A DNA stretch of 52,119 nucleotides, taken from NCBI GenBank assembly GCA_007693585.1, contig REDH01000101.1, forward strand, positions 1 through 52,119. The letters run 5' to 3'. The DNA is from Deltaproteobacteria bacterium (GTDB lineage: Bacteria > Myxococcota_A > Bradymonadia > REDH01). The notes under the pieces were generated by a model, which ran no database searches, had not been told where the DNA came from, and saw nothing but the letters and a program-made list of their open reading frames with translations. How positions within the stretch are numbered: the first letter of the stretch is position 1; every line of letters starts with the position of its first letter. Position numbers and translations under genes: made by a program. Positions 2,840-20,670 of the stretch are shown one piece after another.

Positions 2840-3760
2840 TCAGAGGACGACGCGGTTTCGGCCGAGTTCCTTGGCCGTGTAGAGCTTCTCGTCGGCGATG
2901 CGGATGAACTGGTTGACGAGCTCGGGCGTGGCCGTGCGGGCGTTCTGAAGGTCATGCCGCTCCCGGAATTCCGCGATATCCGCGACCCCGAGCGAGACCG
3001 TGACGTCGAGCTTCCACGAGTCGACCGGGAAAGGCTTCTCGGCGATCGCGATGCGGATCCGTCGGGCCAGTGAGCCCGCGGCGCGCTGCTCGGTCTCCGG
3101 GAGCAGGAGCGCGAACTCCTCCCCACCGTACCGGGCGAACAGGTCCTCTTCCCGGCAGAGGCTGCTCACGCGCTCGGCGACCTGGGTGAGCACTGCGTCG
3201 CCGGCGGTGTGGCCATAGGTGTCGTTGAGCAACTTGAAGCGATCGATGTCGAACATCACGATGGCGAGGTCCCGGTCGTGCCTCAGCGACCGGGAGAGTT
3301 CGCGTTCGAAGGTGGTGAAGAAGTGCCTCCGGTTGGCGATCCGGGTCAGGTCGTCGATCGTGGTGAGGCGGTAGATCTCGTCGTAGTACGCACTCTCGAG
3401 GTTGTTGCGCTCGAGGAACTTGAAGACGGCCTTGCCGATGCGGACCGTGTCTCCGTCCTCGAGCCGCTGCTCGCGCACGGAGACCCCGTTGACGACGGTC
3501 CCGTTGGTGGACTCCAGGTCGCGGATGACGGTGCCGTTGTGCTTCCGGAGCACGCAGGCATGAAGCCGCGAAACCCCCTGCTCCTCGACGACGATGTCCG
3601 CATTGGGGGATCGTCCGAGCCGGGTCTCGACGTTGTGCAGGCGATAGCGACGGCCGATCTCGCCGCCGGAGACGGCCACGAGGCACGCCTCCGCCCCGGC
3701 AGGCGCGCCGACATCGGTGCGGACGACCTGGGTCTTTTCCTGGCTGTCGGTATCGTCCAT
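2840..3760 (-). CDS. FHA-GGDEF diguanylate cyclase
   Basis: 306 residues. An FHA domain (about 40-117) carries the phosphothreonine-binding signature residues G-R-S (49-51), S-R-L-H (64-67) and T-N-G (85-87). A GGDEF domain follows (about 125-305) with active-site GGEEF at 212-216 and an upstream R-x-x-D (203-206), which matches the inhibitory c-di-GMP site. The enzyme should make c-di-GMP from two GTP in the cytoplasm, subject to product inhibition. The FHA domain probably ties its activity or location to a phosphorylated partner; no Ser/Thr kinase is in the window. The ATG at 3758-3760 is preferred over the adjacent TTG at 3763, with AAAGG five bases upstream. It is convergent with the HMA lipoprotein gene, 14 bases apart. 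Confidence 0.93.
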   Translation of the reverse strand: MDDTDSQEKTQVVRTDVGAPAGAEACLVAVSGGEIGRRYRLHNVETRLGRSPNADIVVEEQGVSRLHACVLRKHNGTVIRDLESTNGTVVNGVSVREQRLEDGDTVRIGKAVFKFLERNNLESAYYDEIYRLTTIDDLTRIANRRHFFTTFERELSRSLRHDRDLAIVMFDIDRFKLLNDTYGHTAGDAVLTQVAERVSSLCREEDLFARYGGEEFALLLPETEQRAAGSLARRIRIAIAEKPFPVDSWKLDVTVSLGVADIAEFRERHDLQNARTATPELVNQFIRIADEKLYTAKELGRNRVVL

Positions 3761-3930
3761 CAAGGCCTTTTCCCAGTTCGCACGGGCCGGTCCGCCTCGG
3801 TGTGCCCTGCGCAGGTGGCGCCCCAGTACCTCACCTGTCCCGATGCGGGGATGGCCGGTTTACTGGTTTCCATCGGCCAGCTTTCCCTTCTCGGGGAAGG
3901 AAGTCAAGGGACACGTTGGCCGAGGGAAGC

Positions 3931-4559: not shown

Positions 4560-7376
4560 ATGCCCCCCCGCACCACAATCTTCCGCACCCTAGGCCTCGT
4601 CGTGGCGATCGGGATCGGCGCCGCCTGTGGCGACGACATCGCCCTCCACACTCCCGAAGCTCCCCCGGCGCCCACGACCGAAGCCGATCCGGCCAGCGCC
4701 GCGAGCGGCGACAGCGCCGGAACGTCCACACCCTCGTCCCGGCCGCCGGCCCACCCCCCCTCCGTGGAGATCGACGACGGCATCGATGGCGCCCGGCTGC
4801 CCGCGAACACCCGCACCATCAGGGTGTCCGGCACCGCACGGGCCGACACCGCCGTCGCCGCCGTCTTCGCCCGTTCCGGCCCCAACACCCCCCGCCCGGC
4901 CGCCTCCGACGACGGCTTCCGCACCTTCACCGTCGAGCTCCCCCTGATCGACGGGGAAAACACCCTCGAACTCCACGCTGTCGACACCGAAGGGCGAGTC
5001 ACCGATCCCCCCCTGCGGGCCCGCGTGGAGGTGGACCCCCAGCCCCACGGAACCGCCGCGCCCCGCCTCACCATCCTCGCCCCCGTCGACGACGCGCGCC
5101 AGCTCGATCCCCTCACCCTCGTCCGCGGAAGCACCGAAAGCGACGTGCCCATCGTCCGCGTCGAGATCTCCCGCGACGGGACCGTCCTCGACGAACGCCC
5201 CGTCCTCACCGACGACCACTTCCGCACCTTCAGCCGACACGTGCCCCTCGTCCCCGGCGAAACCCACACCCTCGCCGTCCGCATCGTCGACGCCGCCGGA
5301 CGCGAGGACCGCGTCGTCCGCACCGTCTCCGCCCGCGCCGTCGCCAGCTCCGGCCCGCCCGACCTGATCCTGATCTCCCCACGGGACGGCGAGGACATCC
5401 AGGGCCCGCAATTCACCGTCCGTGGACGCGCACAGGACCGCGACGGCGTGCGCGAGGTCCGCGTCCGCACCGGCGTCCCCCACCCGGATGCACCCGACGA
5501 CGTACGCTGGAGCCCGTGGCAGCACGCCGCCTCCACCGACGGCTACCGCTCCTTCACCGCCCCCCTCGATGCCCACGCCGGAGACTTCACCCTCGAGGCC
5601 CGCGCCATCGACATCACCGGCGTCGCCGCGTCGCAGCGCGTCGCGCTCCGCAACTCCTGGACCCCCGAGCTCGGACCCGCCACCACCGTCCCGCTCCGCG
5701 TGCGACCCCACAACCCGCCACTCCTCCTCTTCGACCTCGACGAGGACGGCATCAACGCCATCATCCCCCCCGACATCCAGCGCCAGATCCGCCTCGCTCC
5801 CCTCGAGTCCACCCCCCTCCTCGTCAACCTCCTCGAACGCGTCCGCAACGCCTGCGGCACCGACTGGCAACGCGACCACCCGAACCCCCGGCACGACTGC
5901 TCACTCACCCCGCTCGGACAGACCTTCGTCGGCGACGACGGCACCTGGCGATCCAGCCCCGAATACGCCCTCGTCCGCCTGCTCACCATGACCCCCGCCA
6001 ACGTCTCCGTCGACGGCACCTCCATCGCAGGACTCCAGGAGCTCGCCGACGGCGGCTTCTTCGGCATCACCATCGGCGGCGGCTTCAGCCAGATCCTCGC
6101 CGACGCCCTGGGCATCGCCCGGACCGACAGCATCGTCTCCATCGACAGCGCCGCCGCCGCCTTCCGCGACCGGTTCGTCGCAAGCCACCCCGAGGTGGAC
6201 GAGGACGGAGCCCTCCGCGTCAGCCTCTACGACGCCCTCCGTGAACTCTCCCCCGTCGGCGACCGACTCGGACCCGCCGGAGGCCACCCCGGGATCTTCG
6301 ATCCCTCGTTCACCCCACGCGCCGCCCTCAAGGGCCCGGACTTCCAGATGCGACTCGGCGCGACCTCCAACCTCCGCTGGGTCGAAGGTCTCCGCCTCGG
6401 CGCCTCCAAGACCTGGATGGCCGTCGTGGACCACCCCACCCTCGGCGCCGATGGCCCCATCCTCTCCTTCGACTTCTTCGACCCCGACCTCTTCGACTTC
6501 CTCGACCTCATCGACGAACCCCGCGCCGACCTGCGCTTCTCCGTCGTCGAGAACCCACGCTTCGTCGACTCCTGCTCCGGCGACAACGCCTGCATGGACA
6601 ATCTCCCGGACCAACCGCTCGACCCCTCGTCCATCTGGGCCACCGAACCCTGGGAGATCGAACACATCATCGCCTACGCCGCCTGGTTGCAATACCGCGA
6701 TCGGACCTTCAGCCGCTGCTACATCCGCACCATCGGATGCCAGGCCCGCGTCACCGTCGGCGATGGCGACGATCCCCCCGGATGGACCCGCTTCAACGTG
6801 CTGTTCAACATGGGCAACCCGCCACGGGATCAGTACATCTGGGAACTCATCGCCGAGGTCGCCCAGGTCGCCCTGCACCGCTTCGGGGATACCGTCGTCG
6901 AGGAGGGGGACCTCCAGGTCGCCTTCACCATCGAGGACGTCCCCGTCGGCACCACCGCCGACGAACTCCGCGAAGCCATCCGGCCCGTCATGCAGGAACA
7001 GGCCGACGATCTCGCCCACCTCCTGCTGGGCGACTTCCGCACCAACAACGATGACCCCGACATCCTGCTGCGAAGATCCCTCGACGGCGAGCTCGTGCTC
7101 GTCTTCGCCTCCACCCACGACCCCCGCCCCGACGACGACGACCCTTGGCCCACGCCCGGCTTCTTCGCCCAGCCCGACCTCCGCCCCGACACCCTCCTCT
7201 CCTCCACCAACGACCAAACCTCCGGGTTCCCCGGACGACACGTGCTGCGGCCGAACGGGGCGGAAGACATCGTCTGGGTCGCCGACCGAGAGGGACGCCC
7301 CTGGCGACTGACCGTCGACTGGATGCCCGATTCCCCCGACGAGATCCGCCTCCATGCGCAGCGCCGGCTCCGATAA
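4560..7376 (+). CDS. Large lipoprotein with three Ig-like domains and an unassigned C-terminal domain (paralog 1)
   Basis: 938 residues. A signal peptide ends in a lipobox-like I-G-A-A-C (Cys23). Three Ig/cadherin-like beta domains follow at about 66-160, 167-265 and 267-375. Each has the pattern of an opening proline plus hydrophobic strand, then 'F-R-T-F' or 'Y-R-S-F', then 'G-x-x-x-L-x-x-x-A-x-D'. From about 387 to the end is a roughly 550-residue region that I cannot assign. It is shared with the next two genes: key pieces are L-L-T-M-T-P-A-N, L-G-P-A-G-x-H-P-G-I, W-E-L-I-A-E-V-A-Q-V and a P-V-G turn. This copy has extra Cys absent from the other two. The ATG at 4560 is chosen because it gives a clean signal peptide; an ATG at 4503 is an alternative start. 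The coding strand is notably C-rich. Its stop overlaps the next start by 23 bases. Confidence 0.85.
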   Translation: MPPRTTIFRTLGLVVAIGIGAACGDDIALHTPEAPPAPTTEADPASAASGDSAGTSTPSSRPPAHPPSVEIDDGIDGARLPANTRTIRVSGTARADTAVAAVFARSGPNTPRPAASDDGFRTFTVELPLIDGENTLELHAVDTEGRVTDPPLRARVEVDPQPHGTAAPRLTILAPVDDARQLDPLTLVRGSTESDVPIVRVEISRDGTVLDERPVLTDDHFRTFSRHVPLVPGETHTLAVRIVDAAGREDRVVRTVSARAVASSGPPDLILISPRDGEDIQGPQFTVRGRAQDRDGVREVRVRTGVPHPDAPDDVRWSPWQHAASTDGYRSFTAPLDAHAGDFTLEARAIDITGVAASQRVALRNSWTPELGPATTVPLRVRPHNPPLLLFDLDEDGINAIIPPDIQRQIRLAPLESTPLLVNLLERVRNACGTDWQRDHPNPRHDCSLTPLGQTFVGDDGTWRSSPEYALVRLLTMTPANVSVDGTSIAGLQELADGGFFGITIGGGFSQILADALGIARTDSIVSIDSAAAAFRDRFVASHPEVDEDGALRVSLYDALRELSPVGDRLGPAGGHPGIFDPSFTPRAALKGPDFQMRLGATSNLRWVEGLRLGASKTWMAVVDHPTLGADGPILSFDFFDPDLFDFLDLIDEPRADLRFSVVENPRFVDSCSGDNACMDNLPDQPLDPSSIWATEPWEIEHIIAYAAWLQYRDRTFSRCYIRTIGCQARVTVGDGDDPPGWTRFNVLFNMGNPPRDQYIWELIAEVAQVALHRFGDTVVEEGDLQVAFTIEDVPVGTTADELREAIRPVMQEQADDLAHLLLGDFRTNNDDPDILLRRSLDGELVLVFASTHDPRPDDDDPWPTPGFFAQPDLRPDTLLSSTNDQTSGFPGRHVLRPNGAEDIVWVADREGRPWRLTVDWMPDSPDEIRLHAQRRLR

Positions 7377-9900
7377 CAGGCCCTTGCGGCACCTCCTGCG
7401 CGCAACCCTCGCGGCTGCGGTGCTCGCGCTGTGCGCCTGCGACGGACCCCTGCCGCCCGCCGACTACGGAGACCCGACGCTCCCCACCGCCCCGGACGAG
7501 GCCAACGGCATCCACGTGCAGGTCCTCGCCCCCGGTGCGCTCCACCCCATCCCGTCCGCGGAGGTCGAGGTACGGCTCCGGGCCTTCACCGACGACGGCG
7601 CGCCGCTCCTCGTCCACGCCGAGGACCACCCGCAGCGCCTCGCCACCCCCGCCGGCGACCCGGCCGGCGAGGAGTTCGCCCTCGCCCTGCCGCTCGTGCA
7701 CGGCACCAATCGGCTCCGCCTGCGCGTCCGCGAGGCTCACGGAACCCGCTCCCGCACCGTCGAGGTCCGCGTGCGCTATGACGGGGACCTCCCCGGGGTC
7801 CGGCCGATCGGCCTCGGCCTCGACGAGGACTGCGGGCTGGCCCGACCGCGCGCCACCGTGCGGGAGACCGCGGTCTGCCTCGCCGCCGAAGCGAGCACCC
7901 GCTCCGGTGCAAGCCCCCACGTGCGCGTCGCAGGCGCCGCCAGCGGACCCGTCGAAGCCCGCGAGGTGGCGCCAGGTCGCTTCGTGGCACAGGTCACGCT
8001 CGCCGAGGAGAGCGACGCCGTCCTCACCCTGTCCGCCACCGACGAGACCGGGCGGTCGGCCGAGGCCACCCTGAGGGTGCGACACACCCGGATGCCCCCG
8101 GGGATCCGCATCGACGACCCCGCGGTGGACGTCGTGCTCGACGACGCGTCCGTGCGCCTCGCCGGGCGGGCCGAGGCCGCCGGCGCCATCCGCAACATCA
8201 CCGTGCGTCGCGGAAGCCGCGCCGTTGCGATGTTCGAGGGGCAGGAGGACTTCGACCTGCACGTCCCGCTGCAGCCGGGGACCAACCTCCTCACCGTGGT
8301 CGCCGTCGACGACGCGGGAAACGAGGCCACCGAGACGAGGCGGGTCTTCCGCGATCGACCCATCACCCTGCGCGGCGGCGGGCGGGTGGACGGCCCGGTC
8401 ATGCTCGACCTCGACCGCGAGGCCCTCGGCGCCCTCGTGCCGGAGGAGGAGCAGCGGCGCATCACCCTCGTCGAGCTTGAGCTCCGGCCGCTCGTGCGCG
8501 AGGCGCTGCGCGCCATCCGCGACCCCGCCGCCACGGGGATCGACCCGGACGAGCTCGGCCCCGCCGAGCGCAACCTCCGGCGCCTGCTCGCCATGGACCT
8601 CGACACCGCCGATCTCGCCGGGACCCGCCTCGAGAACCTCCTGACCGTCGCCGAGGGCATCGGACTGCCGGCACCGCGGGTGCTCGCCGAACTCCTCGAC
8701 CTCTCGCCTCTCGAACCGATCGCCGACCTCGACATCGTCACCGACGTCACCCTCGAGCGGCTCGTCGGCGCGCACCCGGAGGTCCGCATCGAGCGCGGCG
8801 AGGCGCTGCTCGCCATCTCCCTGCATGACGCCCTCCGTGACCTCGGGCCGCTCGCGGAGCGGCTCGGGCCCGCCGGGGAACACCCGGGCATTGTCGACGG
8901 TCCCGTGCGCGCCGACCTCTTCGAACCGGGCTTCCGGATGCGTGTCCGCGCCCGCTCGCGCCTCGAACGGTTCGAGGGGGTGGACGTCTCGATGGGCCGG
9001 AAGGACTACAGCCAGCGACGGCCGGACGGCCCGCTCGCGGAGGTCGACTTCCTCGACCCGGACGCCTTCGACGTGATCGGGCTCGTCGACGAGCCCACGG
9101 CGGACATGCGGCTGCGGATCCTCGAGGCGCCGGTGTTCTTCGTGGCGGGGACCGGGCGCCGCGAGAACCCCGTGCCCGATCGCCCGGGCTTCTTCCGGGG
9201 AGGAAGCAGCGTCTGGGACGAACCACCCTGGGTGCTCGAGGGGCTCATCGCCGAGACCGCCTATCGCATCTTCTCCCACCGGTTCGCCGGTCAGGGCTGG
9301 CAGCGGACCCTGCGTTACGACGCCGGTGCCATCCGGGACGCCGCCGTGCTGGACTGGGACCGCGGCTGGCTGACCATCGAGACCGCCGGCGGGGTCGGAC
9401 AGCCCCCTCCGCCCGGCTACGTCTGGGAGTTCCTCACCGAGGTGTTCCAGGTCCGCCTGCACGACGGGGGCATCCCCGAGGGCGAGGCACACGTGGCCTT
9501 CACCCTGCGCGGGGTGCACGTCGGCATCGACGCCGATACCCTCGTCGAGCGCCTGCGCACCCCGCTCCAGGAGCAGGCCGACCAGCTCCTGGAGGCGATC
9601 CTCGGAACCGAGCCGCTCTACCCGGACACCACCGACTTTCACTTCGTCCCGGCCGGGATCGACGGCAGTCCCCCCTCGCTGCGCCGGCTCCCGGACGCCG
9701 GAGGGTTCTACCGCGACGAGGCGCTGAGCGTGCCCGCGACCGGCGTGGAGCGATCGAGCGACCCGAGGCGGGTCCGCGCCGTGGAGGGCGAAGCGCTGCA
9801 CTTCCGGGCCCGCAACGGCGAACCCTGGACCGTCCTCGTGCTCGCCGTCTCGGACGACGAGGTCAGCGTGCGCGTGTTTCCGGCCGGAGGGATGCCATGA
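7354..9900 (+). CDS. Large lipoprotein with Ig-like domains and the same unassigned C-terminal domain (paralog 2)
   Basis: 848 residues. A signal peptide with Arg-rich start and Ala/Leu core ends in L-A-L-C-A-C (acylation most likely on Cys29). Ig-like beta segments run from about 50 to 335, ending with a clear repeat (P-G-I-R-I-D-D to V-D-D-A-G-N). The shared C-terminal domain begins near 348 (P-V-M-L-D-L-D) and matches paralogs 1 and 3 along its length: N-L-R-R-L-L-A-M, R-V-L-A-E-L-L-D, L-G-P-A-G-E-H-P-G-I, W-E-F-L-T-E-V-F-Q-V, then L-H-D-G-G-I-P-E-G-E-A-H-V. No enzymatic motif is evident. The start at 7354 overlaps the upstream gene by 23 bases and its stop overlaps the next start in ATGA, so translation is very likely coupled. 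Probably surface- or periplasm-exposed. Confidence 0.85.
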   Translation: MRSAGSDNRPLRHLLRATLAAAVLALCACDGPLPPADYGDPTLPTAPDEANGIHVQVLAPGALHPIPSAEVEVRLRAFTDDGAPLLVHAEDHPQRLATPAGDPAGEEFALALPLVHGTNRLRLRVREAHGTRSRTVEVRVRYDGDLPGVRPIGLGLDEDCGLARPRATVRETAVCLAAEASTRSGASPHVRVAGAASGPVEAREVAPGRFVAQVTLAEESDAVLTLSATDETGRSAEATLRVRHTRMPPGIRIDDPAVDVVLDDASVRLAGRAEAAGAIRNITVRRGSRAVAMFEGQEDFDLHVPLQPGTNLLTVVAVDDAGNEATETRRVFRDRPITLRGGGRVDGPVMLDLDREALGALVPEEEQRRITLVELELRPLVREALRAIRDPAATGIDPDELGPAERNLRRLLAMDLDTADLAGTRLENLLTVAEGIGLPAPRVLAELLDLSPLEPIADLDIVTDVTLERLVGAHPEVRIERGEALLAISLHDALRDLGPLAERLGPAGEHPGIVDGPVRADLFEPGFRMRVRARSRLERFEGVDVSMGRKDYSQRRPDGPLAEVDFLDPDAFDVIGLVDEPTADMRLRILEAPVFFVAGTGRRENPVPDRPGFFRGGSSVWDEPPWVLEGLIAETAYRIFSHRFAGQGWQRTLRYDAGAIRDAAVLDWDRGWLTIETAGGVGQPPPPGYVWEFLTEVFQVRLHDGGIPEGEAHVAFTLRGVHVGIDADTLVERLRTPLQEQADQLLEAILGTEPLYPDTTDFHFVPAGIDGSPPSLRRLPDAGGFYRDEALSVPATGVERSSDPRRVRAVEGEALHFRARNGEPWTVLVLAVSDDEVSVRVFPAGGMP

Positions 9901-11681
9901 GCCTCGACCGCCTCGCCGGTGCGCCACGCGTCCGTCCCGCCGCCCTGCTGGCGCTGCTCACCACCCTCCTGGGGGTCGCCTGCGGCGCGGACGATGCGCC
10001 CCCCGCCCCCGAGGCGCCGCAGGTGCTCGCGGTCGGGGAACAGCGGGAGGTCGAGCTGCGCGCCCTCCGGTTCGAGGTGAGCAACTTCGAGCAGACCCTG
10101 ACCCTCGATGACCTGCGGGACCTGCCGCCAGGAGTCCGCGATCGGTTGTGGCTCCTCGACCTCGACCTCGTCGGGGGACCGTCGGCACCCGGCCTGCTCG
10201 ACAACGCCCTCGTGGCCCTGAGAGAGGCGGATCCCGATGCCATGGAGCCCGCCGCCCGAAACCTGCAGCGCCTGCTCGCCATGACTCCGGCCAACGCCGA
10301 CCTCCGCGGAACCCTGCTGGAGCCGCTCGTCGAACTCTCGCCCCTCGTCGGCCTGCCGCCCGCCAGGGTGCTCGCCGACCTCCTCGGCATCGACCTCGAC
10401 GATCCCTTCCTCTCCGACGAGCTGCTCGCCGACGTTCTCGTCACCAACGTCATCCGGACCCATCCCGCCACACGGACACGCCCGGGGCCCGTCACCGACG
10501 AGCACCCGGACGGGCAGGTGCCGGTACCGCCGGGCGCGATCCCCATCACCCTCGCCGATGCCGTCGACAATTTCGCGTCGCTCGCCGAGCGGTTCGGACC
10601 GTCCCGCGAGCCGGGGGCGATGCACCCCGGGTTCCTGGCCGGTGACGTCGCCGCCGAGGTCTTCACCGACGACTTCGCCATGACGGTGCGGGCCAACGCC
10701 AACGCGCTGCCGTACCGGGGCGTCGAGCTGCGCACGGCCAGCCCCGCCAGCGTCGGGAGCATCGCCTCGCAGATCGACCGCCTCTTCGACTTCGAGGACC
10801 CGGACTGGCTGCGCATCGAGGGCCTCGTCCCCGGCCAGCCCGTCCTGCGCCGGATGGCGCTGCAGGTCCTCGAACACGACGGATTCGTCCCGGGCGGAAC
10901 GAGTCCGGAACCCCGGCCGTTCGGCAACTCCCCGGGCTGGAGCCTGCCCGCCTGGACCCTCGAGCGGATCCTCCTCGACGCGGCCCTCCTCGCCTGGAAG
11001 GACCACTCCACCGCGCTCGCCTGGGGGGAACCGGGGGAGGACGGCCTGCCGCTGTTCGCCGCGGAGGTCGCCAGCGGATGGGTCGAGATGCAGACCCGCG
11101 GTGGGGTCGGCAACCCTCCCGCACCCGCCTGGCTCTGGGATATCCTGCTCGAGGTCGCCCAGGTGCGGTTGCACGACGGCGGAATTCCCCAGGGAGAGGC
11201 TCACGTGCGCATCGTGCTGGAGGACATCCCCATCGGCCTGACCTCCGAGGACATCGTCCGCACGATCCGCGAGAACCTCGCCGCCGATCCCGCCCTGCTC
11301 ACCGACGTGGTCCGCCAGCTCATCGACCACTCCGAGGGCGACGCCGACTTCTACTACCTCCGTCCCGGCCCGGGCACACCCGCGGCCCTCGAGGGAGACT
11401 GGCTCGTGTTCGTCGGGGAGGAGGACATCCGGAGGGATGACGCAGGGGAACCCGTCCGGGCCTGGACCTACTCACGGCCGGGCTTCTTCGCCGACGAAGC
11501 CCTCGAGCAGCGGGTGTCCAGCCCCGTTCTCCTCGAGGGGGATGCGCGCCGCCAGAAGGTCCGCGTCGCCCCGGGCGACACGCTCTACGCCCAGGCGGCG
11601 GACGACGGTGTCCACCGCATCCGGGTCCGGGAGAAGCCCGCCGTCCACCGCCTGCGCCTGGAGATCACGCGTGTGCGGTGA
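9897..11681 (+). CDS. Lipoprotein consisting mainly of the unassigned domain (paralog 3, no Ig domains)
   Basis: 594 residues. The signal peptide ends in L-L-G-V-A-C (Cys29). After a short Ala/Pro linker the protein goes directly into the shared domain, so this is the minimal member of the trio. Conserved pieces include N-L-Q-R-L-L-A-M-T-P-A-N, P-A-R-V-L-A-D-L-L-G-I, W-D-I-L-L-E-V-A-Q-V-R and L-H-D-G-G-I-P-Q-G-E-A-H-V. The 'L-H-D-G-G-I-P-x-G-E-A-H-V' string is almost identical to paralog 2 and is the strongest family signature. GGAGG at 9886-9890 precedes the ATG of the ATGA overlap. Translation of the FadL-like gene begins inside its last codons. Confidence 0.85.
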   Translation: MSLDRLAGAPRVRPAALLALLTTLLGVACGADDAPPAPEAPQVLAVGEQREVELRALRFEVSNFEQTLTLDDLRDLPPGVRDRLWLLDLDLVGGPSAPGLLDNALVALREADPDAMEPAARNLQRLLAMTPANADLRGTLLEPLVELSPLVGLPPARVLADLLGIDLDDPFLSDELLADVLVTNVIRTHPATRTRPGPVTDEHPDGQVPVPPGAIPITLADAVDNFASLAERFGPSREPGAMHPGFLAGDVAAEVFTDDFAMTVRANANALPYRGVELRTASPASVGSIASQIDRLFDFEDPDWLRIEGLVPGQPVLRRMALQVLEHDGFVPGGTSPEPRPFGNSPGWSLPAWTLERILLDAALLAWKDHSTALAWGEPGEDGLPLFAAEVASGWVEMQTRGGVGNPPAPAWLWDILLEVAQVRLHDGGIPQGEAHVRIVLEDIPIGLTSEDIVRTIRENLAADPALLTDVVRQLIDHSEGDADFYYLRPGPGTPAALEGDWLVFVGEEDIRRDDAGEPVRAWTYSRPGFFADEALEQRVSSPVLLEGDARRQKVRVAPGDTLYAQAADDGVHRIRVREKPAVHRLRLEITRVR

Positions 11682-13188
11682 TGCCTCGGCCCGGACATCC
11701 GTCCCGCGGTTCACCGCCCCCCGGCTTCCGCGCTGCGCGGGGGCGGTCGCGCTGGCCCTCGCCCTGCTGCTCGGCGCAGGGATACGGCCTCTGCCCGCGC
11801 TGGCGTCCGGGCTGCAGGTCCCCGCGGTTGGCACCCTCGGCTCGGGTCCCCTCGCCGAGGATGCCGCATCGCTCCACTGGAACCCGGCCCAGCTCGCGGC
11901 CCTCGATCAGCCGCAGCTCCTTGTCGGCGGACACCTCATCGCGGGGGATCTCCGCTACCGGCGCGAGCGCCGCGCCGCCTACCAGCGCGAGGACGCCTTC
12001 CACTTCCGGCTCCCCATTCCGGCCGACGCCATCGACCCCTCCCGCACCGGCAGCGAGCCCACCGTGCGCGCCAATCCGCTCGGACTCGCACCGTCCATCT
12101 TCCTCGCCATGCCGCTGGGCACCGCGCGCCCCGCCACGGCGGCGATCGGCGTCTATGCCCCGTATGCTGCCCTCGTCTCCCTGCCCGACGACGGACCGCA
12201 GCGCTTCGCCGTGCAGGAGGCCACCATCGCAGCCGTCCACACCACGGTATCCCTTGGCGTCGAACCCGTCGCGGGCCTGCGCCTGGGCGGCGGGGCCTCC
12301 CTGGTCCTCGGCTACGCCGACATCCGCCGGGTGCAGGACTTCGCGGCCCTCTCCGAACTCGGCGATGCCCTCGCCGGACCCGCGATCAACCAGCCGAACG
12401 ACTTCGGGCCCGATGCCCCGCCGGCCGTTCGCGAGCTGGAGGCCCTCGCGCGCCCCATCCACCTCCGGGACGCCACCGGCGCCGGGGTGACCTTCCAGCT
12501 CGGCGCATCCGCCGACCTCGGCGCGGACTGGCAGCTCGGCGCGAGCTGGCAGCACGGGGTCCCGCTGACCCTGCGCGGCCGCTTCGTCCTCGACATGGAC
12601 GACCCCTTCTTCACCGGCGACCTCGCAGCCCAGGGACTCGAGTACGCGCCGCGGATCGAAGGCCGAGCCCAGCTCGGCATCCGGCTTCCGGGATCCCTGC
12701 ACGCCGGCGTGCGATGGCGCGGGCACCCCGCCTGGACCGTGGACGCGTGGGGAACCCTGACCCGCTGGTCCACCCTCGAGGCCTTCGACGTTCGCGTGCG
12801 GAGCGCCGGCCTCGCCCAGCCCGAGCTCGGTGTCGGGGATGCCTCCAGCCTGCGCATCGAGCGCCAGTGGCGAGACACCGTCGGTGCCGAGAGCGTCGTG
12901 CACCACAGCCCTCGAGACACCTGGACAATACGCGGACGCGGGGGTCTGCGCACCGGCGCAAGCCCCGACGAGACCGTCGACATGAGCAGCCCCGACGGAA
13001 CCCGCATCATCGCCGGGGCCGGGATCGAGCAGCCGCTCACCTCGGCGCTGAGCCTTCACGGGGATCTGCTGGTTCACCACGTGCTTCGCCGAACCGTCGC
13101 GGCGTCGCGGCATGACCTCGCCAACGGCACCTACCGGTTCACGCTGCTCTCCGCCGGACTGTTTCTGACGCTCACACCGCGCGGATGA
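11671..13188 (+). CDS. OmpP1/FadL/TodX-family outer-membrane protein
   Basis: 505 residues from a GTG at 11671, which overlaps the stop of the previous gene by 11 bases and has GGAG seven bases upstream. The signal peptide has an Ala/Leu core and ends near A-L-A-S. The mature N-terminus (G-L-Q-V-P, then A-A-S-L-H-W-N-P-A-Q-L) matches the N-terminal hatch region of FadL-type proteins, where an 'A-x-x-x-x-x-N-P-A' motif is typical. The remainder is alternating beta-strand sequence, as expected for a 14-strand barrel. Family members take up hydrophobic compounds such as fatty acids or aromatics across the outer membrane. The substrate here is unknown, and the coupled lipoproteins may be its partners. 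An ATG at 11678 is in another frame and does not give this protein. Confidence 0.85.
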   Translation: MCGDASARTSVPRFTAPRLPRCAGAVALALALLLGAGIRPLPALASGLQVPAVGTLGSGPLAEDAASLHWNPAQLAALDQPQLLVGGHLIAGDLRYRRERRAAYQREDAFHFRLPIPADAIDPSRTGSEPTVRANPLGLAPSIFLAMPLGTARPATAAIGVYAPYAALVSLPDDGPQRFAVQEATIAAVHTTVSLGVEPVAGLRLGGGASLVLGYADIRRVQDFAALSELGDALAGPAINQPNDFGPDAPPAVRELEALARPIHLRDATGAGVTFQLGASADLGADWQLGASWQHGVPLTLRGRFVLDMDDPFFTGDLAAQGLEYAPRIEGRAQLGIRLPGSLHAGVRWRGHPAWTVDAWGTLTRWSTLEAFDVRVRSAGLAQPELGVGDASSLRIERQWRDTVGAESVVHHSPRDTWTIRGRGGLRTGASPDETVDMSSPDGTRIIAGAGIEQPLTSALSLHGDLLVHHVLRRTVAASRHDLANGTYRFTLLSAGLFLTLTPRG

Positions 13189-13218: not shown

Positions 13219-13429
13219 CATCACCGAGGCTGCTCGTGACGGCTGCGGGGACGACGTCTCCCGGACGCCGGGAAAAATTCGTGGCTGATTCGTTGCCGCG
13301 CTGCGACAAGCTGACTACGGACCGCCGATGGGGCGGGGTACCCGTGACTCCGCTCGCCCCCGTGCCCGCCACCCTCTCCCCACACGAACGGCGAGCCGCG
13401 GCTGCTTCGAGAAGACACAGGATGTCAGG

Positions 13430-15181
13430 ATGGAATTGAATCGAATGACCCCGCTGCTGTCCGCGGCCCTACTGCTCCTCACCGCAATCGCGACCCCCGC
13501 GTGCAGCTCCGACGACGACGGCGTGGAGCCGCCCGGCACCATCGAACCCACCATGCCCGGGGATGTCACGGACGGCCCGTCCGATCCCGGGGACGTTGGC
13601 TCGGAGCCGGGGGACACCTCCCAGGTCGAGTTCGAGTGCATCCTGGATGTGGACTGCACCGGCGAGCGGCAGATCTGCGTCAACGCCGAGTGCGTGGACG
13701 GTTGCCGCGAGGACGAGGACTGTGTGGATGACAACATCTGCACGACGAACGTCTGCAGGAATTCGCGGTGCGAGGCGATCACCACCGACCGTCTGCTGCC
13801 CGACGAAACCCCGGGCGACTGCAAGCGGCCCGCGTGCGAGAACGGGGTGCTGATCGAGGTGGCGAGCCCCGCAGACCTGCCTCCCCGCTCCGACGACACC
13901 TTCTGCGTGGAGCCCCGCTGCCAGGGCACAACCCCGGTCCAGTTCCCCAACAACGAGCTGTGCCGAAGCGACGATCCCCTCGACGCCGACAACCTCTGTG
14001 TTCCGGGCCAGGGATGCGTGGTGCCCGAAGACCTCCCCGACTGGGTCTGCGAGCCCTTCGACCCGGGCTACCTCGATCAGGAGGTCTGCGGAGACGGTCA
14101 GGACAACAACGGCGACGGTCGCGCCGACGGCGACTGCCCCTGCGAATTCGGCACGGTGCAGCGTTGCTTCATCGGGCCGCCCAATGCGCGCGGCGTCGGC
14201 CAGTGTACCGACGGCATCCAGCAGTGCGTGAACCGGGACAACCCCACCTGGGGGCCCTGCACCGGCGGCATCCTTCCCAGCCCCGAGGTCTGCAACGGCC
14301 GCGACAACTCCTGCAACGGCTGCGTCGATGACCTCCCGGACTGCACCGGCGTTCTCCAGTGCCCCGAGAACCAGGTCACCCAGCCGTTCCGCGAGTACGT
14401 GCTCGACGCCAGCGCCTTCGTGGACGCCACCGTCGAGTCCTACGAGTGGGTCGTCATCCCGCCGGCCAACTCCAACGCCGGCGTGCCCAACAATCCCAAC
14501 TCCCCCGTGACCAGCATGTTCATGGACGTGTCCGGGGACTACCTCGTCTCCCTCACCGTCACCGACGACAAGCAGGACACCTTCGGCTGCTCCTGGATCG
14601 TGTCCGCACAGGGCTCCGGACTCCGTGGCGAGCTGGTGTGGGACACCTTCGGGAGCGTCGATCTCGACCTCCACCTCGCCCTCCTCGGCACCAGCACGAG
14701 GTTCTGTGACAACTCCTCGTGCTACTACGCCAACTGCCGCGCAGGACGCGGCACCGGCGGCGTCAACTGGGGCTACGATCCGTCCCCCGGCGAGGCCTGC
14801 GGCCGCGGCGCAGGGCAGACCTGCCCGAATCCCCGCCTCGACATCGACAACATCCGCGGGCAGGACCCGGAGAACATCAACGTCGACAACCCGAACAACG
14901 GCGACGTGTTCCGGTTCATGATCCACAAGTTCAGCGGCGCGGCGCCCACCCGCCCCGTCCTCTCCGTCTACTGCGGCGGAGGACTCGCCGCCGTCGTCGG
15001 CGAAGCCCCCGATACCGTTACCCTCACCCAGGCCGGCGGCGGCTGCGGCGGACAGACCTGGCGCGTCGCCGACGTCAACATGATCGTCGACCCCGACACC
15101 GGGGCCACCGCCTGCACCGTGGACATCCTCACCGGGTCCTCCGGCGGGTTCGACGTCCGCACCAGCTCCAGCGAGCTCTGA
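13430..15181 (+). CDS. Cys-rich lipoprotein with MopE-like, PKD-like and D-x-D-L-H domains (duplicate 1)
   Basis: 583 residues. A signal peptide ends in A-T-P-A-C (Cys25), then an acidic Asp/Gly/Pro linker. Residues about 65-290 are Cys-rich with C-x5-C-type spacing as in EGF/Dickkopf-like bacterial lipoproteins. They include C-N-G-R-D-N-S-C-N-G-C, a variant of the MopE-type C-D-G-x-D-N-D-C-D-G metal-binding motif. A PKD-like beta domain (about 308-398) contains D-V-S-G-D-Y-L-V. The final ~185 residues begin L-V-W-D-T-F-G-S-V-D-L-D-L-H-L, resembling the DUF2135/YfaP-type beta domain, and carry extra Cys. The next gene is a close relative. Predicted to be displayed on the outer membrane; no enzymatic motif is seen. 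AGGA lies seven bases before the ATG. Confidence 0.82.
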   Translation: MELNRMTPLLSAALLLLTAIATPACSSDDDGVEPPGTIEPTMPGDVTDGPSDPGDVGSEPGDTSQVEFECILDVDCTGERQICVNAECVDGCREDEDCVDDNICTTNVCRNSRCEAITTDRLLPDETPGDCKRPACENGVLIEVASPADLPPRSDDTFCVEPRCQGTTPVQFPNNELCRSDDPLDADNLCVPGQGCVVPEDLPDWVCEPFDPGYLDQEVCGDGQDNNGDGRADGDCPCEFGTVQRCFIGPPNARGVGQCTDGIQQCVNRDNPTWGPCTGGILPSPEVCNGRDNSCNGCVDDLPDCTGVLQCPENQVTQPFREYVLDASAFVDATVESYEWVVIPPANSNAGVPNNPNSPVTSMFMDVSGDYLVSLTVTDDKQDTFGCSWIVSAQGSGLRGELVWDTFGSVDLDLHLALLGTSTRFCDNSSCYYANCRAGRGTGGVNWGYDPSPGEACGRGAGQTCPNPRLDIDNIRGQDPENINVDNPNNGDVFRFMIHKFSGAAPTRPVLSVYCGGGLAAVVGEAPDTVTLTQAGGGCGGQTWRVADVNMIVDPDTGATACTVDILTGSSGGFDVRTSSSEL

Positions 15182-15354: not shown

Positions 15355-17460
15355 ATGCTCCTCCGATCCCTTGCGCTCGCCCTCCTGATCCCGGCAGCCC
15401 TGGTACTGGCCCTGGCCGGATGCGCCGACGAAACCCAGGGCGGAGGCGGCGCCGGCGACGACGACCGCGGCGGACGCTTCGGTCCGCCCCCCTCCGGAGA
15501 AGTCCCGGGCCAGCCCGGCAGCGGATGCGAGACGAACGCCGAGTGCGCGGGAACCCTCGAGTGCATCGACGGCCGCTGCGCCGCGACGTGCGGCGGGGAA
15601 ACCTGCGAAGCACCCACCCCCCTGTGCGACGAAGTCGCCGAGCGATGCGTCGAGTGCCTTCGGGACACCCAGTGCGACGATGGGTTCGTGTGCGATGACG
15701 GCGTGTGCTTCCCCCGATGCGCCCTCGACGGGTGCGAGGACGGCGAGGTGTGCGATCCCGAGACCGGCGCCTGCCTCTCCGCCGACTGCAGCGCCTATCC
15801 ACCCTGTCCCGACAACACCTGCGACGGGAACCTGCTCGTGCGCTGCGAGCCCAACGCTGCCGGCTGCCCCGTCCGCGTCGACCGCGACTGCGGCGCCGAA
15901 GGCGGTGCGTGTCAGCAGACCGCGGCCGGAGCCGAGTGTCGCATTCCCTGCGCCACCGATGGGGACTGCGCCGAGGGAGAATCCTGCCAGGGTGGCTTCT
16001 GCCAGCCCTCCTGCCGCACCGACGCGGACTGCAGCGACGGAAACCCCTGCACCCTCAACCGCTGCGAGGCCGGCTCGTGCACGGTGGCAGAGGTCCAGGA
16101 CCGCGATGACGCCCCCGATGATCGCGCAGGCGATTGCCGCAGGCCCGTCTGCGAAGCGGGAGAGGTGCGCTACATCCCCGACAACGAGGACCGCCCGCCG
16201 GACGACGGAATCGCCTGCACCGTGCCCGCCTGCGACGATGGCACGCCGATCTACCGGCCCGACAACGCCCGCTGCGATGGCGACGATGTCTGCTTCGTCC
16301 AGGGCGGAGGGTGCGTGCCGCGCGACGAGGTGCCCGACAACGTCTGCATCCCCACCCAGCATGACTATGACTACTTCCTCGATCCACAGTGTGGGGACGG
16401 GATCGCCGACCAGGACTGCCCGTGCGAGTTCGGCAGCGTACAGCGCTGCTTCATGGGCCCGCCAACCGCCCGCGGCGTCGGAGCCTGCGCCGACGGCACC
16501 CAGATCTGCCAGAACCGCCTCGACCCCCGCTGGGGACCCTGCTCCGGCAGCCTCACCCCGCAGCCCGAAGTCTGTGACGGCCGCGACAACGCCTGCGACG
16601 GATGCGTCGACAACATTCCCAACTGCGCACCCGTCGTGAACTGCCCCGACAACGAGGTCACCCAGCCCTTCCGCCACTACGAACTCGACGCCCAGAGCTT
16701 CTTCGACGATGTCATCACCGAGGTGAACTGGATCGTGCGACCGCCCCCGAACTCCAACGCCGGCGTCCCCGAGAACCCCACCAGCCCCCAGACCCGCTTC
16801 TACATGGATGTCTCCGGGGACTATCTCGTCACCATCCAGATCACCGACGACAAGAACACCACCTTCGCCTGCTCCTGGATCGTGTCTGCCGAAGGCGAGG
16901 GACTCCGCGTGGAGCTGGTGTGGGATACCTTCGGCAGCGTCGACATGGACCTCCACCTGCTGCGGGACGTGCCGGGCGCCACCTTCTGTACCGCAAACGA
17001 TTGCTACTACGCCAATTGCCGCGCGGGCCGCGGCACCGGCGGCGCCAACTGGGGCTACGCGCCCTCCCCGGGCGAAGCGTGCAACCGAGGTGCCGGACAG
17101 ACCTGCCCGAACCCCCGCCTCGACATCGACAACATCCGCGGACAGGACCCGGAGAACATCAACGTCGACAACCCCAACGATGGAGACTCCTTCCGCGTCA
17201 TGGTCCACATGTTCTCCGGCACGCGAACCACCCGAAACACCGTCTCCATCTACTGCGGCGGCAGCCTGCGCGCCGTCTTCGGCGAGGCCCCGGACTTCGC
17301 CATCACCAACCGCTCGGGCAGTGGCTGCGGTGGGCACACCTGGCGGGTCGCCGACGTCATCATGCGCGTGGATCCGGGCACCGGAGCGACCTCCTGCGAT
17401 ATCGTGCCTCTCGCCGGACCCGACGGCTACGACATCCGGCTGAACACCAGCGCGCGCTGA
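15355..17460 (+). CDS. Cys-rich lipoprotein with MopE-like, PKD-like and D-x-D-L-H domains (duplicate 2)
   Basis: 701 residues. The signal peptide ends in a strong lipobox (A-L-A-G-C, Cys23), followed by a Gly/Asp linker. The Cys-rich region is longer than in duplicate 1 (about 55-420) and contains several C-x-x-D-x-x-C-x-x-G units plus C-D-G-R-D-N-A-C-D-G-C. A PKD-like domain (about 429-517) and the D-M-D-L-H-L domain (about 519-701) match duplicate 1 almost residue for residue in places. One example is the 19-residue run starting R-L-D-I-D-N-I-R-G-Q, identical in both. DNA in that stretch differs only at third codon positions, which points to recent duplication or gene conversion. The ribosome site is weak. 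No function can be assigned beyond probable surface binding or adhesion. Confidence 0.82.
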   Translation: MLLRSLALALLIPAALVLALAGCADETQGGGGAGDDDRGGRFGPPPSGEVPGQPGSGCETNAECAGTLECIDGRCAATCGGETCEAPTPLCDEVAERCVECLRDTQCDDGFVCDDGVCFPRCALDGCEDGEVCDPETGACLSADCSAYPPCPDNTCDGNLLVRCEPNAAGCPVRVDRDCGAEGGACQQTAAGAECRIPCATDGDCAEGESCQGGFCQPSCRTDADCSDGNPCTLNRCEAGSCTVAEVQDRDDAPDDRAGDCRRPVCEAGEVRYIPDNEDRPPDDGIACTVPACDDGTPIYRPDNARCDGDDVCFVQGGGCVPRDEVPDNVCIPTQHDYDYFLDPQCGDGIADQDCPCEFGSVQRCFMGPPTARGVGACADGTQICQNRLDPRWGPCSGSLTPQPEVCDGRDNACDGCVDNIPNCAPVVNCPDNEVTQPFRHYELDAQSFFDDVITEVNWIVRPPPNSNAGVPENPTSPQTRFYMDVSGDYLVTIQITDDKNTTFACSWIVSAEGEGLRVELVWDTFGSVDMDLHLLRDVPGATFCTANDCYYANCRAGRGTGGANWGYAPSPGEACNRGAGQTCPNPRLDIDNIRGQDPENINVDNPNDGDSFRVMVHMFSGTRTTRNTVSIYCGGSLRAVFGEAPDFAITNRSGSGCGGHTWRVADVIMRVDPGTGATSCDIVPLAGPDGYDIRLNTSAR

Positions 17461-17555: not shown

Positions 17556-18904
17556 CAGTCGTACACCCCCCGCTCCCGGTGACGCTCGCGAAGCGCGTCC
17601 TGCCGATGCTCCAGAGGAAGAGCCTCTCCGCGCACCCAGACCGCCACCGGGCGGCTCGAGAACTCGAACGGGTCGCCGCTCCACAGCACCAGGTTGGCCA
17701 CCCGCCCGACCTCGATCGCGCCGTGGGTGTCGCCCACCCCGGCCAGCATCGCCGGATGCAGCGTCACCGCCCGCAGCGCGCTCTCCGCGCTCATCCCGGC
17801 ACGCACCGCATTGCCGGCGATGAACCGAAGGTTGCGGCCGTTGTGCGTCGTGCCGGTCGTCAGGATCACCGGCACGCCAGCCTCGTCGAGCAGCGCGGCG
17901 GCGTCCTCCCGCGCGCCCAGCTCGTCAAACTGCGCCGGCAGGTTGCGCATGGGATGCACCATCACGAACGCGCCCGCCTCCGCCAGCTCGGGCGCGATCC
18001 GCCAGCCGTCGGCCAGACCCGTGAACGCCGGCCGGAGGCCATGCCGCTCCGCCAGCGCGAGCAGCGCCCGGGCATCCGCCACGCGCTGGGCCTGGAACAG
18101 CACCGGCGTTCCCGCCACGCGAACCTCCTCGAGCGCGATCAGATCCAGCCGGTGCGCCGCGAGATCCCGCATCCGCCGCTCCTCGAACGCCTCCGGGTTC
18201 CCGGCGCGCACCCTGGCGTCGTCGAAGACCTCGTCGAGCCGGGCGAGTCGCCGGCTGCGGGCATCCTCGCGGAGCGCACGACCGGTGAACGGCACCACCA
18301 GATACGCCGACTCGCGGACGACGAGGTCCGTGGCGTCCGCAGGGCCGAGATCCCACAGGGCCGCCTGTCCGGAGATGAGGCCGCCCCCGGGAGCGCTGAC
18401 CACCGAAGTCACCCCCCCGGACCGCGTGATCGGCACCACCATGGAGAACGGGTTGAGTCCGGGCGCGACCCGGAACGCTGCGCGGATCTCATGGTCGGTA
18501 GACGCGTCCGCATCCCGCGTCTCCGGGACCGCGTTCACCTCGAGGAGGCCGAGCTGGCTCTGCGCGTCGATCAGGCCTGGCGTGAGCACCGCACCGCGGC
18601 CGTCGACCACCACGGCGCCCGCCGGTGCCGGCGCGTTGCGCACCGAGGTGATCGTGCCGTTCTCCATGCAGACCGTCGCATACGCGGGTGCCGCCACCAC
18701 CGCGTGCACCCGCGCACCGACGATGCACACGGGGCCGTCGGCGGGTGACGGGGCGCTCCCTGCGGGAGTCATGGAATCGGGCTCCGACGGGGCGCTTCCG
18801 TCTGCGGAGGGACCCTCGTCGGCCAGCGCCGCAGCGGACAGGCTTGCGAGGGCGAGGAGCAGGACGAGACGCCGGAGTGAGGAAATGGGCCGTGGACATC
18901 TCAT
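17555..18904 (-). CDS. Amidohydrolase-like protein lacking metal ligands (probable pseudoenzyme)
   Basis: 449 residues with an N-terminal signal peptide (Leu/Ala core to about residue 28) and an amidohydrolase/imidazolonepropionase-like fold: T-P-G-L-I-D at about 108-113, and G-A-I-E-V-G-R-V-A-N-L-V-L-W near the C-terminus. The metal-binding residues of the family are replaced throughout. The H-x-H after L-I-D-A is Q115-S-Q117. The segment matching the partner's V-H-C-Y-R-A-D-E reads F-Q-A-Q-R-V-A-D. The position of the partner's F-H-H has no His, and the H-S-D position reads T-T-G. It is therefore unlikely to hydrolyse anything by the family mechanism. The start at 18904 forms an ATGA overlap with the stop of the upstream active homologue, with GAGG upstream. 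A structural or regulatory partner role is inferred. A terminator follows at once. Confidence 0.88.
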   Translation of the reverse strand: MRCPRPISSLRRLVLLLALASLSAAALADEGPSADGSAPSEPDSMTPAGSAPSPADGPVCIVGARVHAVVAAPAYATVCMENGTITSVRNAPAPAGAVVVDGRGAVLTPGLIDAQSQLGLLEVNAVPETRDADASTDHEIRAAFRVAPGLNPFSMVVPITRSGGVTSVVSAPGGGLISGQAALWDLGPADATDLVVRESAYLVVPFTGRALREDARSRRLARLDEVFDDARVRAGNPEAFEERRMRDLAAHRLDLIALEEVRVAGTPVLFQAQRVADARALLALAERHGLRPAFTGLADGWRIAPELAEAGAFVMVHPMRNLPAQFDELGAREDAAALLDEAGVPVILTTGTTHNGRNLRFIAGNAVRAGMSAESALRAVTLHPAMLAGVGDTHGAIEVGRVANLVLWSGDPFEFSSRPVAVWVRGEALPLEHRQDALRERHRERGVYD

Positions 18905-20388
18905 GGCTGCACCTCGTTGGGCCACTGGCCGAGCTCGAAGTCACTCCACGGGTGCTCCGCCTCGCCGCGCACCGTCTGGGCGATGCCGTCCACGAACACG
19001 TAGTCCGCGCGGGCGTACACGCTGAAGGGATGCTGGGACCAGAGCACGACGTCGGCGCGCAGGCCCGGGGCGAGGCGGCCTGTGAGGTGATCGATGCCGA
19101 GCACCCAGGCGGCGTTGGCGGTGATCCATCGAAGGGCGTCGTCCTCGGTGAGCTCCAGGCCGGCAGCGAGGCCGGCGAAGTAGGCCTTCGCGGCCTCCTG
19201 GTTGAGCCGCTGGATGTCGTAGGCGGAGTCGGAGTGGATCACCGCGCGCGCGCCGGCCACCGTGAGCAGGGCGGCGTTCTCGAGCACGGCGTCGAGGGCC
19301 TCGAGCTTGAAGCCCCACCAGTCGGCCCAGGTCGCCGTGGCCACCTCGCGTACGGCCAGCTCATCGGCGATCTTGTAGGCCTCCACCGCATGGTGGAAGG
19401 CGCGGATGCTGAAGCCGAACTCCTCGGCGAGGTCGAGCATGACGCGCATCTCGTCGGCGCGGTAGCAGTGCACCTGTGGAAGGAGCTCGCCCCGAAGCAG
19501 GCGGGCGAGGGTCTCGCGCTGCAGGTTGCGCGCCGGCGGCTCGGGAGCGTCCCCGCGCGCGCCGTCCTCGCACCAGGTGCGAAGCTCCTCCTCGTGCGCC
19601 TCCAGCTCGCGCAGCGTGGTCCGGGCGTCGTACAGCGCCTGGCGGAGCACCGCCACGTTGCCCATCCGGGTGGCCGGGGAGCGGTTGCGGCTCCCGTACA
19701 CGCGCTTCGGGTTCTCGCCGCAGGCCATCTTCACCCCCTCGGGGGCGCCGGGGAAGAGCAGGTCCGAGGCGGCCATGGCCCCCCGGCGGACCCGGAGGGT
19801 CACGCTGCGCCCGCCGACGAGATTCGCCGAGCCCGGCAGCACGTGGATCGTCGTGACCCCGCCGGCCGAGGCCCGCTGCAGACCCGGATCCTGAGGCCAG
19901 AAGCTGTGCAGCGCGTTGACCTCGGCCGTGATCGGCGCGGTGGCCTCGTTGCCGTCGGAGTGCGCGTCCACCCCCGGGGTGGCGTACACGCCGAGGTGAC
20001 TGTGGGCGTCGATGATGCCGGGAGTCACCCACCGGCCGGCCGCGTCCAGGCGCACCGTGTCGTCCGGGACCTCGGAGGCCGTGCCCGGCCCCACCGAGAC
20101 GATGCGCCCCTCGGCGAACAGCACATGGCCCGGGTCGTGCCGGTCGCCGTCCGCGGTCAGGACCCGCGCGTTCTCGATCAGCACGGGCGCGGGCTGCATC
20201 GACACCCGGAAGGACTCGACCGAGTCCTCGTCGTCGCCCAGCATGGCGCAGACCGCCGGAGGCTCGGCCGGGGCCGGGGGGGCGCTGCCGCCGCACGACT
20301 GGGCCGCCCACGCCAGCAGGAGCAGGGCGACGGACAGGCACCGGGCCGCGCGCGGCGCAGGGACAGGGCGAGAAGGGGGCGTTCGCAT
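18901..20388 (-). CDS. Amidohydrolase lipoprotein with complete metal site
   Basis: 495 residues from the ATG at 20386-20388. The signal peptide ends at A-A-Q-S-C (Cys32), so the enzyme is probably lipid-anchored in the envelope. The amidohydrolase fold is intact: T-P-G-I-I-D-A-H129-S-H131-L-G, then V-H-C-Y-R-A-D-E, A-F-H-H and I-H-S-D-S, which supply the usual His and Asp ligands of the imidazolonepropionase/dipeptidase-like branch. Family members cleave cyclic amides, dipeptides or similar C-N bonds using one or two metal ions; the substrate here is unknown. It is the first gene of a two-gene operon, overlapping the degenerate homologue by ATGA. No clear ribosome site precedes the chosen start. 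Longer in-frame starts exist upstream but would spoil the signal peptide. Confidence 0.9.
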   Translation of the reverse strand: MRTPPSRPVPAPRAARCLSVALLLLAWAAQSCGGSAPPAPAEPPAVCAMLGDDEDSVESFRVSMQPAPVLIENARVLTADGDRHDPGHVLFAEGRIVSVGPGTASEVPDDTVRLDAAGRWVTPGIIDAHSHLGVYATPGVDAHSDGNEATAPITAEVNALHSFWPQDPGLQRASAGGVTTIHVLPGSANLVGGRSVTLRVRRGAMAASDLLFPGAPEGVKMACGENPKRVYGSRNRSPATRMGNVAVLRQALYDARTTLRELEAHEEELRTWCEDGARGDAPEPPARNLQRETLARLLRGELLPQVHCYRADEMRVMLDLAEEFGFSIRAFHHAVEAYKIADELAVREVATATWADWWGFKLEALDAVLENAALLTVAGARAVIHSDSAYDIQRLNQEAAKAYFAGLAAGLELTEDDALRWITANAAWVLGIDHLTGRLAPGLRADVVLWSQHPFSVYARADYVFVDGIAQTVRGEAEHPWSDFELGQWPNEVQP

Positions 20389-20493
20389 GGGGCCGGGAGG
20401 GATGCACGGAGAGGGAACGACGGCGCGGAGCCACCCGGAGGCCCGGGCGTCGCCGGACCGGGCGGGGACCGCCCGCGCGCCGACCACCCTATG

Positions 20494-20621
20494 CCCGAAC
20501 GCGGAAGCTGTCACCCTTGTGGCCCCTCCCCGGCAGCCCTATCCGAATCCCGGCGCCCACCCCGTCCCGCGTTCGCGATCGGAGTGGCCTGCCGCTCCGC
20601 CGCCCCGTCCCGCGTTCGCGA
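20494..20621. promoter_or_regulatory. Repeated CCGCGTTCG sites in a divergent intergenic region
   Basis: The 282-base gap between the amidohydrolase operon (minus, 20388) and the aldehyde dehydrogenase (plus, 20671) has no gene. It contains two exact 19-base direct copies of CCCCGTCCCGCGTTCGCGA at 20560-20578 and 20603-20621, 43 bases apart (about four helical turns). The inverted core CGAACGCGG is at 20496-20504. The arrangement suggests binding sites of a regulator shared by both directions, but no protein can be named. I do not see a convincing promoter in the gap. Confidence 0.4.
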
Positions 20622-20670
20622 CCGGCGCGACCCCCGTCATTCTTCATCCGACCGCTGTCCCGGAGGCACG

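Follow-up and report, generated by a model that had tools for sequence, protein, structure and literature searches.

The window, as the whole stretch of 52,119 nucleotides analysed here is called, contains an operon in which three lipoprotein genes, lip1, lip2 and lip3, are followed by a gene for a FadL-family barrel, all on the + strand (Table 1). Coordinates agree with the initial annotation that the four genes overlap by 23, 4 and 11 bases at the successive junctions, and that the first three products are paralogous lipoproteins: each starts with a signal peptide and carries a lipobox, with GAA, CA and GVA ahead of the modified Cys in lip1, lip2 and lip3, respectively, and blastp aligns lip1 with lip2 (29% identity over 754 columns, E 1e-58), lip2 with lip3 (31%, E 4e-52) and lip1 with lip3 (26%, E 2.5e-26). 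The paralogy of the three proteins is therefore far above chance, and they are the only three copies of their shared C-terminal domain, of about 520 residues, in the host genome of the window.

Table 1. Features of the lipoprotein–FadL operon, in positions of the window
Feature	Position	Strand	Basis or remark
lip1, alpha-type lipoprotein, 938 aa	4560-7376	+	ORF, lipobox
lip1 lipobox Cys	4626-4628	+	signal peptide and lipobox
lip1 Ig-like domains, three	about 4821-5468	+	Pfam
lip1 shared C-terminal domain	5691-7373	+	domain limits, alpha clade
lip2, beta-type lipoprotein, 848 aa	7354-9900	+	ORF, lipobox
lip2 lipobox Cys	7438-7440	+	lipobox
lip2 Ig-like stalk	up to about 8355	+	
lip2 shared domain	8356-9897	+	AF2 model
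lip3, gamma-type lipoprotein, 594 aa, without Ig stalk	9897-11681	+	ORF, gamma clade
lip3 lipobox Cys	9981-9983	+	lipobox
lip3 shared domain	about 10044-11648	+	
FadL-family barrel, 505 aa, GTG start, signal peptide	11671-13188	+	PF03349, AF2, clade
FadL N-P-A hatch motif	11881-11889	+	alignment of linked FadLs
FadL loop L3, model residues 183-218, predicted extracellular	12340-12447	+	unusually conserved
FadL loop L4, model residues 268-286, predicted extracellular	12595-12651	+	unusually conserved
FadL loop L6, model residues 387-403, predicted extracellular	12952-13002	+	most conserved loop
FadL loop L7, model residues 436-444, predicted extracellular	13099-13125	+	unusually conserved

Ahead of the shared domain, the three lipoproteins differ in their Ig-like domains, the number of which had been described as falling along the operon. 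This holds at both ends, since Pfam recognises three such domains in lip1 (Big_13, Glucodextran_B and Big_7) and none in lip3; for lip2, a single domain is recognised (Glucodextran_B/Big_6, residues 249-334) in a stretch of about 300 residues with space for about three.

The surroundings of the operon contain several other genes of note. Upstream and divergent from lip1 lies a gene for a small PHA_gran_rgn protein (PF09650; 3931-4299, -), which adjoins that of an FHA-GGDEF protein (2840-3763, -). On the 3' side, two adjacent paralogous genes (13328-15181 and 15619-17460, +) encode predicted secreted Cys-rich proteins that have motifs such as EVCNGRDN and a C-terminal FGSVDMDLHL-like region in common, the first of them with a weak PKD match. 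Further downstream, a frame of 1113 residues (18688-22029, +) has an aldehyde dehydrogenase domain confined to residues 662-1109, with about 660 unassigned residues ahead of it, and a protein of 1308 residues (28614-32540, +) contains HYDIN/ASH-like Ig domains, a family more familiar from eukaryotic cilia proteins.

The C-terminal domain shared by the lipoproteins is undescribed in Pfam, NCBIfam and the PDB, in line with the initial annotation, which could place the region in no family. Among 81 homologues, Pfam gave scattered weak matches only, each in at most two members; NCBIfam gave no match, and the PDB sequences returned just two designed repeat proteins, aligned across 27 positions. A confident AlphaFold2 model was obtained for the lip2 domain (pLDDT 94.2, pTM 0.88), for which no structure of the PDB and no predicted viral structure was returned by Foldseek at E <= 0.001. 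As judged against the PDB and viral models, the domain is a candidate for a new fold. A TULIP-like lipid-binding fold, prompted by the strand-helix pattern, was considered and set aside, as the sole pointer to it, a botulinum OrfX2 chain (E 0.22, probability 0.01), carries no evidential weight.

Three signature motifs had been assigned to the shared region of all three proteins, and one of them needs to be narrowed: LHDGGIPxGEAHV is common to lip2 and lip3 only, lip1 reading LHRFG..., and family-wide it is a hallmark of the beta and gamma types described below, not of the alpha type. Residues invariant in all three types are, in the numbering of the lip2 domain, H140-P141 and H176-P177-G178, with T90, G171, G242, W357 and D158 near-invariant; the core of the family can be summarised as H-P, H-P-G, a near-invariant G-T and one Trp.

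The fourth gene was correctly read at the outset as OmpP1/FadL, its product matching PF03349 at E 1.5e-23 (83.4 bits against a cut-off of 29.7) and its AlphaFold2 model having a pLDDT of 89.8 and a pTM of 0.86. The barrel and its hatch motif are retained in the FadLs linked to lipoprotein genes, among which NP is invariant (36 of 36) and NPA is found in 27 of 36. With cleavage placed after ALA, NPA starts at mature residue 26 of the window's protein, compared with residue 33 in E. coli FadL. In a tree of 47 FadLs, the 25 linked ones form a single clade with 100/100 support, separate from 21 further FadLs that these genomes encode. Gaps against unlinked FadLs hinted at an insertion near L3 specific to the linked proteins, which was discarded as E. 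coli FadL aligns through the same stretch.

The coupling of the lipoproteins to a FadL-type gene, proposed by the initial annotation from this locus, recurs elsewhere, and it thereby withstands the refuting outcome named there, namely homologues that never neighbour FadL-type genes. Homologues of the domain were found in 9 of the 57 genomes of the class and in 35 of the 379 Myxococcota genomes sampled; outside Myxococcota, the homologue search consisted of one 8-residue pattern, which divergent homologues could escape. In 32 of the 35 positive genomes, the lipoprotein genes have a PF03349 gene as a same-strand neighbour, and in the remaining three (G133, G163 and G252) the operon lies at a contig end; in G133 the matching FadL was found on a separate short contig, and it sits within the linked clade. 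In the opposite direction, a profile of the linked clade matches 33 of the 379 genomes, one match each, all of them among the 35 that carry the domain, and none of the 344 domain-negative genomes. This co-occurrence (Fisher p about 2e-45, a value that ignores relatedness) spans nine families. Cultured bacteria show the same pairing, and the named carriers include two Nannocystis species, N. exedens and N. pusilla, as well as Enhygromyxa salina, Plesiocystis pacifica and Paraliomyxa miuraensis. Besides the lipoproteins and FadL, no further partner gene recurs in the operon neighbourhoods. Genetically, the lipoprotein domain is obligately coupled to one FadL clade. At one locus, L097, an unrelated-looking gene (11719-12369, +) stands between the last lipoprotein and FadL, the widest gap observed. 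No description of the operon was found in the literature, which was covered mostly outside subscription journals.

The distribution also bears on the nature of a possible ligand. An operon serving sterols, either made by the host bacteria or taken up, would fit with the presence of squalene epoxidase (PF08491) in 16 of the 35 domain-positive genomes as compared with 43 of the 344 others, and in 10 of the 11 genomes of one positive family. However, the association, which ignores relatedness, follows two families, and squalene epoxidase is without a match in the window's genome and in the majority of the positive families. Since the window's own genome is negative and the signal is concentrated in two families, a sterol ligand is not adopted here and is considered very improbable.

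A tree of 79 domains separates an alpha type, to which lip1 belongs, from a beta type with lip2 and a gamma type with lip3; the SH-aLRT values are 98 for alpha, 93 for beta and 100 for gamma, the alpha and gamma sides being starred. The gamma type occurs in every complete operon of this tree. Many three-gene operons show the order alpha-beta-gamma-FadL, with stalks of about 330-356 residues in alpha, 125-328 in beta and 20-36 in gamma. A second gamma type takes the middle position in the three-gene operons of L081, L097 and L105, which include that of Nannocystis exedens. Two-gene operons are mostly arranged as FadL-alpha-gamma and have only 22-52 residues ahead of the domain, with no Ig stalk. 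The lipoproteins of graded reach postulated by the initial annotation are therefore found in many three-gene operons but not in the two-gene operons nor in L081, where a three-gene set has short stalks as well; for the same reason, the Ig stalks are regarded as accessory. At its smallest, the unit consists of an alpha-type and a gamma-type lipoprotein together with FadL, and it can do without both the Ig stalks and the middle lipoprotein.

Four extra alpha-type copies have no FadL neighbour, and their genomes carry the operon elsewhere. Two of these stand-alone copies (L080, 4891-6909, -; L096, 7918-9822, -) adjoin a secreted protein beginning MDRRKF..., which we take by eye to be DUF1501-like, together with a larger lipoprotein bearing a CxxCH haem motif. 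This neighbourhood is a second conserved context for the domain, free of FadL.

The linked FadLs are further distinguished by the conservation of their loops. Fourteen strands were assigned from the DSSP string and the alignment with E. coli FadL, and the sides of the loops are predictions from this assignment. Among the linked FadLs, the mean pairwise identity is 0.57 in the predicted extracellular loops and 0.39 in the strands, a ratio of 1.46, whereas the unlinked FadLs placed in the same frame gave 0.63 and 0.46. When each group is scored on its own residues, which removes the gap artefact, the loop/strand ratio is 1.32-1.47 in the linked and 0.72-0.77 in the unlinked proteins, while strand conservation is similar in both. 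The loops of outer-membrane barrels are usually their most variable part, and the inverse pattern seen here therefore suggests a constant partner or ligand on the predicted extracellular side. Such conservation of the predicted outer face of FadL is unusual and is what a dedicated partner would call for, and the conserved loops could bind a ligand instead of a protein.

This last possibility would suit an arrangement in which periplasmic lipoproteins, acting as carriers or lipid-modifying enzymes, receive the ligand from the barrel and the loops do no more than bind it. Outer-membrane lipoproteins often face the periplasm, the lipobox Cys of lip2 is directly followed by Asp, and the invariant His, Asp, Gly and Trp residues of the domain could, judging from the alignment, make a binding or active site. 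Nevertheless, a docking surface for such partners is not visible on the periplasmic side, since the linked FadLs have short periplasmic turns of low conservation, and ligand binding by itself would not obviously keep all of L3-L7 conserved. A periplasmic location of the lipoproteins is thus considered improbable.

The conserved loops are also compatible with a barrel that is no transporter and serves as a docking or anchoring platform, holding the lipoproteins at the surface or aiding their delivery. Such roles are known for the FadL family: the PorV and PorP-like barrels of the type 9 secretion system (T9SS) hold cell-surface cargo and can act as docking proteins (PMC9143113), and the Bacteroidota BamG is a FadL homologue that binds the surface lipoprotein BamH via its extracellular loops (PMC12578637), within a BAM complex also treated in PMC12611786. 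Import is thus not to be assumed for the operon FadL, as these barrels are no importers. BAM-associated FadL chains do appear among the Foldseek matches of the FadL model, yet only at E 1.7e-10, after the transport FadLs of P. aeruginosa and E. coli (E 5.6e-24, TM about 0.7) and after TbuX, CymD and TodX, to which the model is nearer. Moreover, measured against E. coli FadL, the N-terminal tail leading up to the hatch motif lacks about 7 residues, whereas that of BamG has about 10 more. A search for SprA gave no match in 12 genomes, but its control was silent as well, and the result is not taken as absence of the translocon. A platform role alone appears unlikely, although it deserves more weight than the periplasmic arrangement.

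The reading preferred here, for which we see about an even chance, is that the operon encodes one outer-membrane assembly of a FadL-type channel and two or three paralogous lipoproteins for the surface capture of a hydrophobic molecule. The core of this assembly would consist of an alpha-type lipoprotein, a gamma-type lipoprotein and the barrel. The lipoproteins would most likely lie at the cell surface, above the conserved extracellular loops of the channel, and would physically bind the barrel. There, they would capture a specific hydrophobic molecule, or free it from a larger carrier, and hand it to the channel, through which it would presumably enter by the plugged FadL pathway. The cultured and sequenced hosts, Nannocystis exedens, Plesiocystis pacifica and Enhygromyxa salina, make this idea testable.

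Several known systems can be compared with the operon. The Big_7, Big_13 and Glucodextran_B domains resemble only the stalks of lip1 and lip2, that is, an accessory part that lip3 and the two-gene operons do without. With the FadL/OmpP1/TodX proteins (PF03349), the operon FadL has in common the barrel family, the NP hatch motif and the closest solved folds; however, it belongs to a clade of its own with a long stem, its extracellular loops are more conserved than its strands, and its lipoprotein genes are obligate. In contrast to PorV and PorP-like barrels, its partners bear lipoboxes, and no PorV model matched it in an NCBIfam scan up to E 1, which returned only the FadL model PRK10716. The closest architectural precedent for the proposed complex of FadL with lipoproteins is BamG-BamH, in which a FadL homologue is likewise accompanied by lipoproteins. 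Nevertheless, the operon FadL lacks the N-terminal extension of about 10 residues of BamG, its loops are conserved whereas those of BamG that touch BamH are reported not to be, no BamA-type gene is conserved beside the operon, and its lipoproteins are of an unmatched fold. Partners of FadL-family barrels are thus already known from the Bacteroidota BAM and T9SS, and classical FadL transporters are known as lone barrels that import hydrophobic compounds unaided. If the preferred reading is true, FadL-type uptake gains accessory subunits outside those two settings. More tentatively, and as less likely than not, the lipoproteins of unsolved fold and their private FadL clade may form a multi-subunit machine of Myxococcota for taking up hydrophobic molecules at the cell surface, a capped FadL. 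SusD-type lipoproteins cap TonB-dependent barrels, and a capped FadL would place a lipoprotein over its barrel in the same manner.
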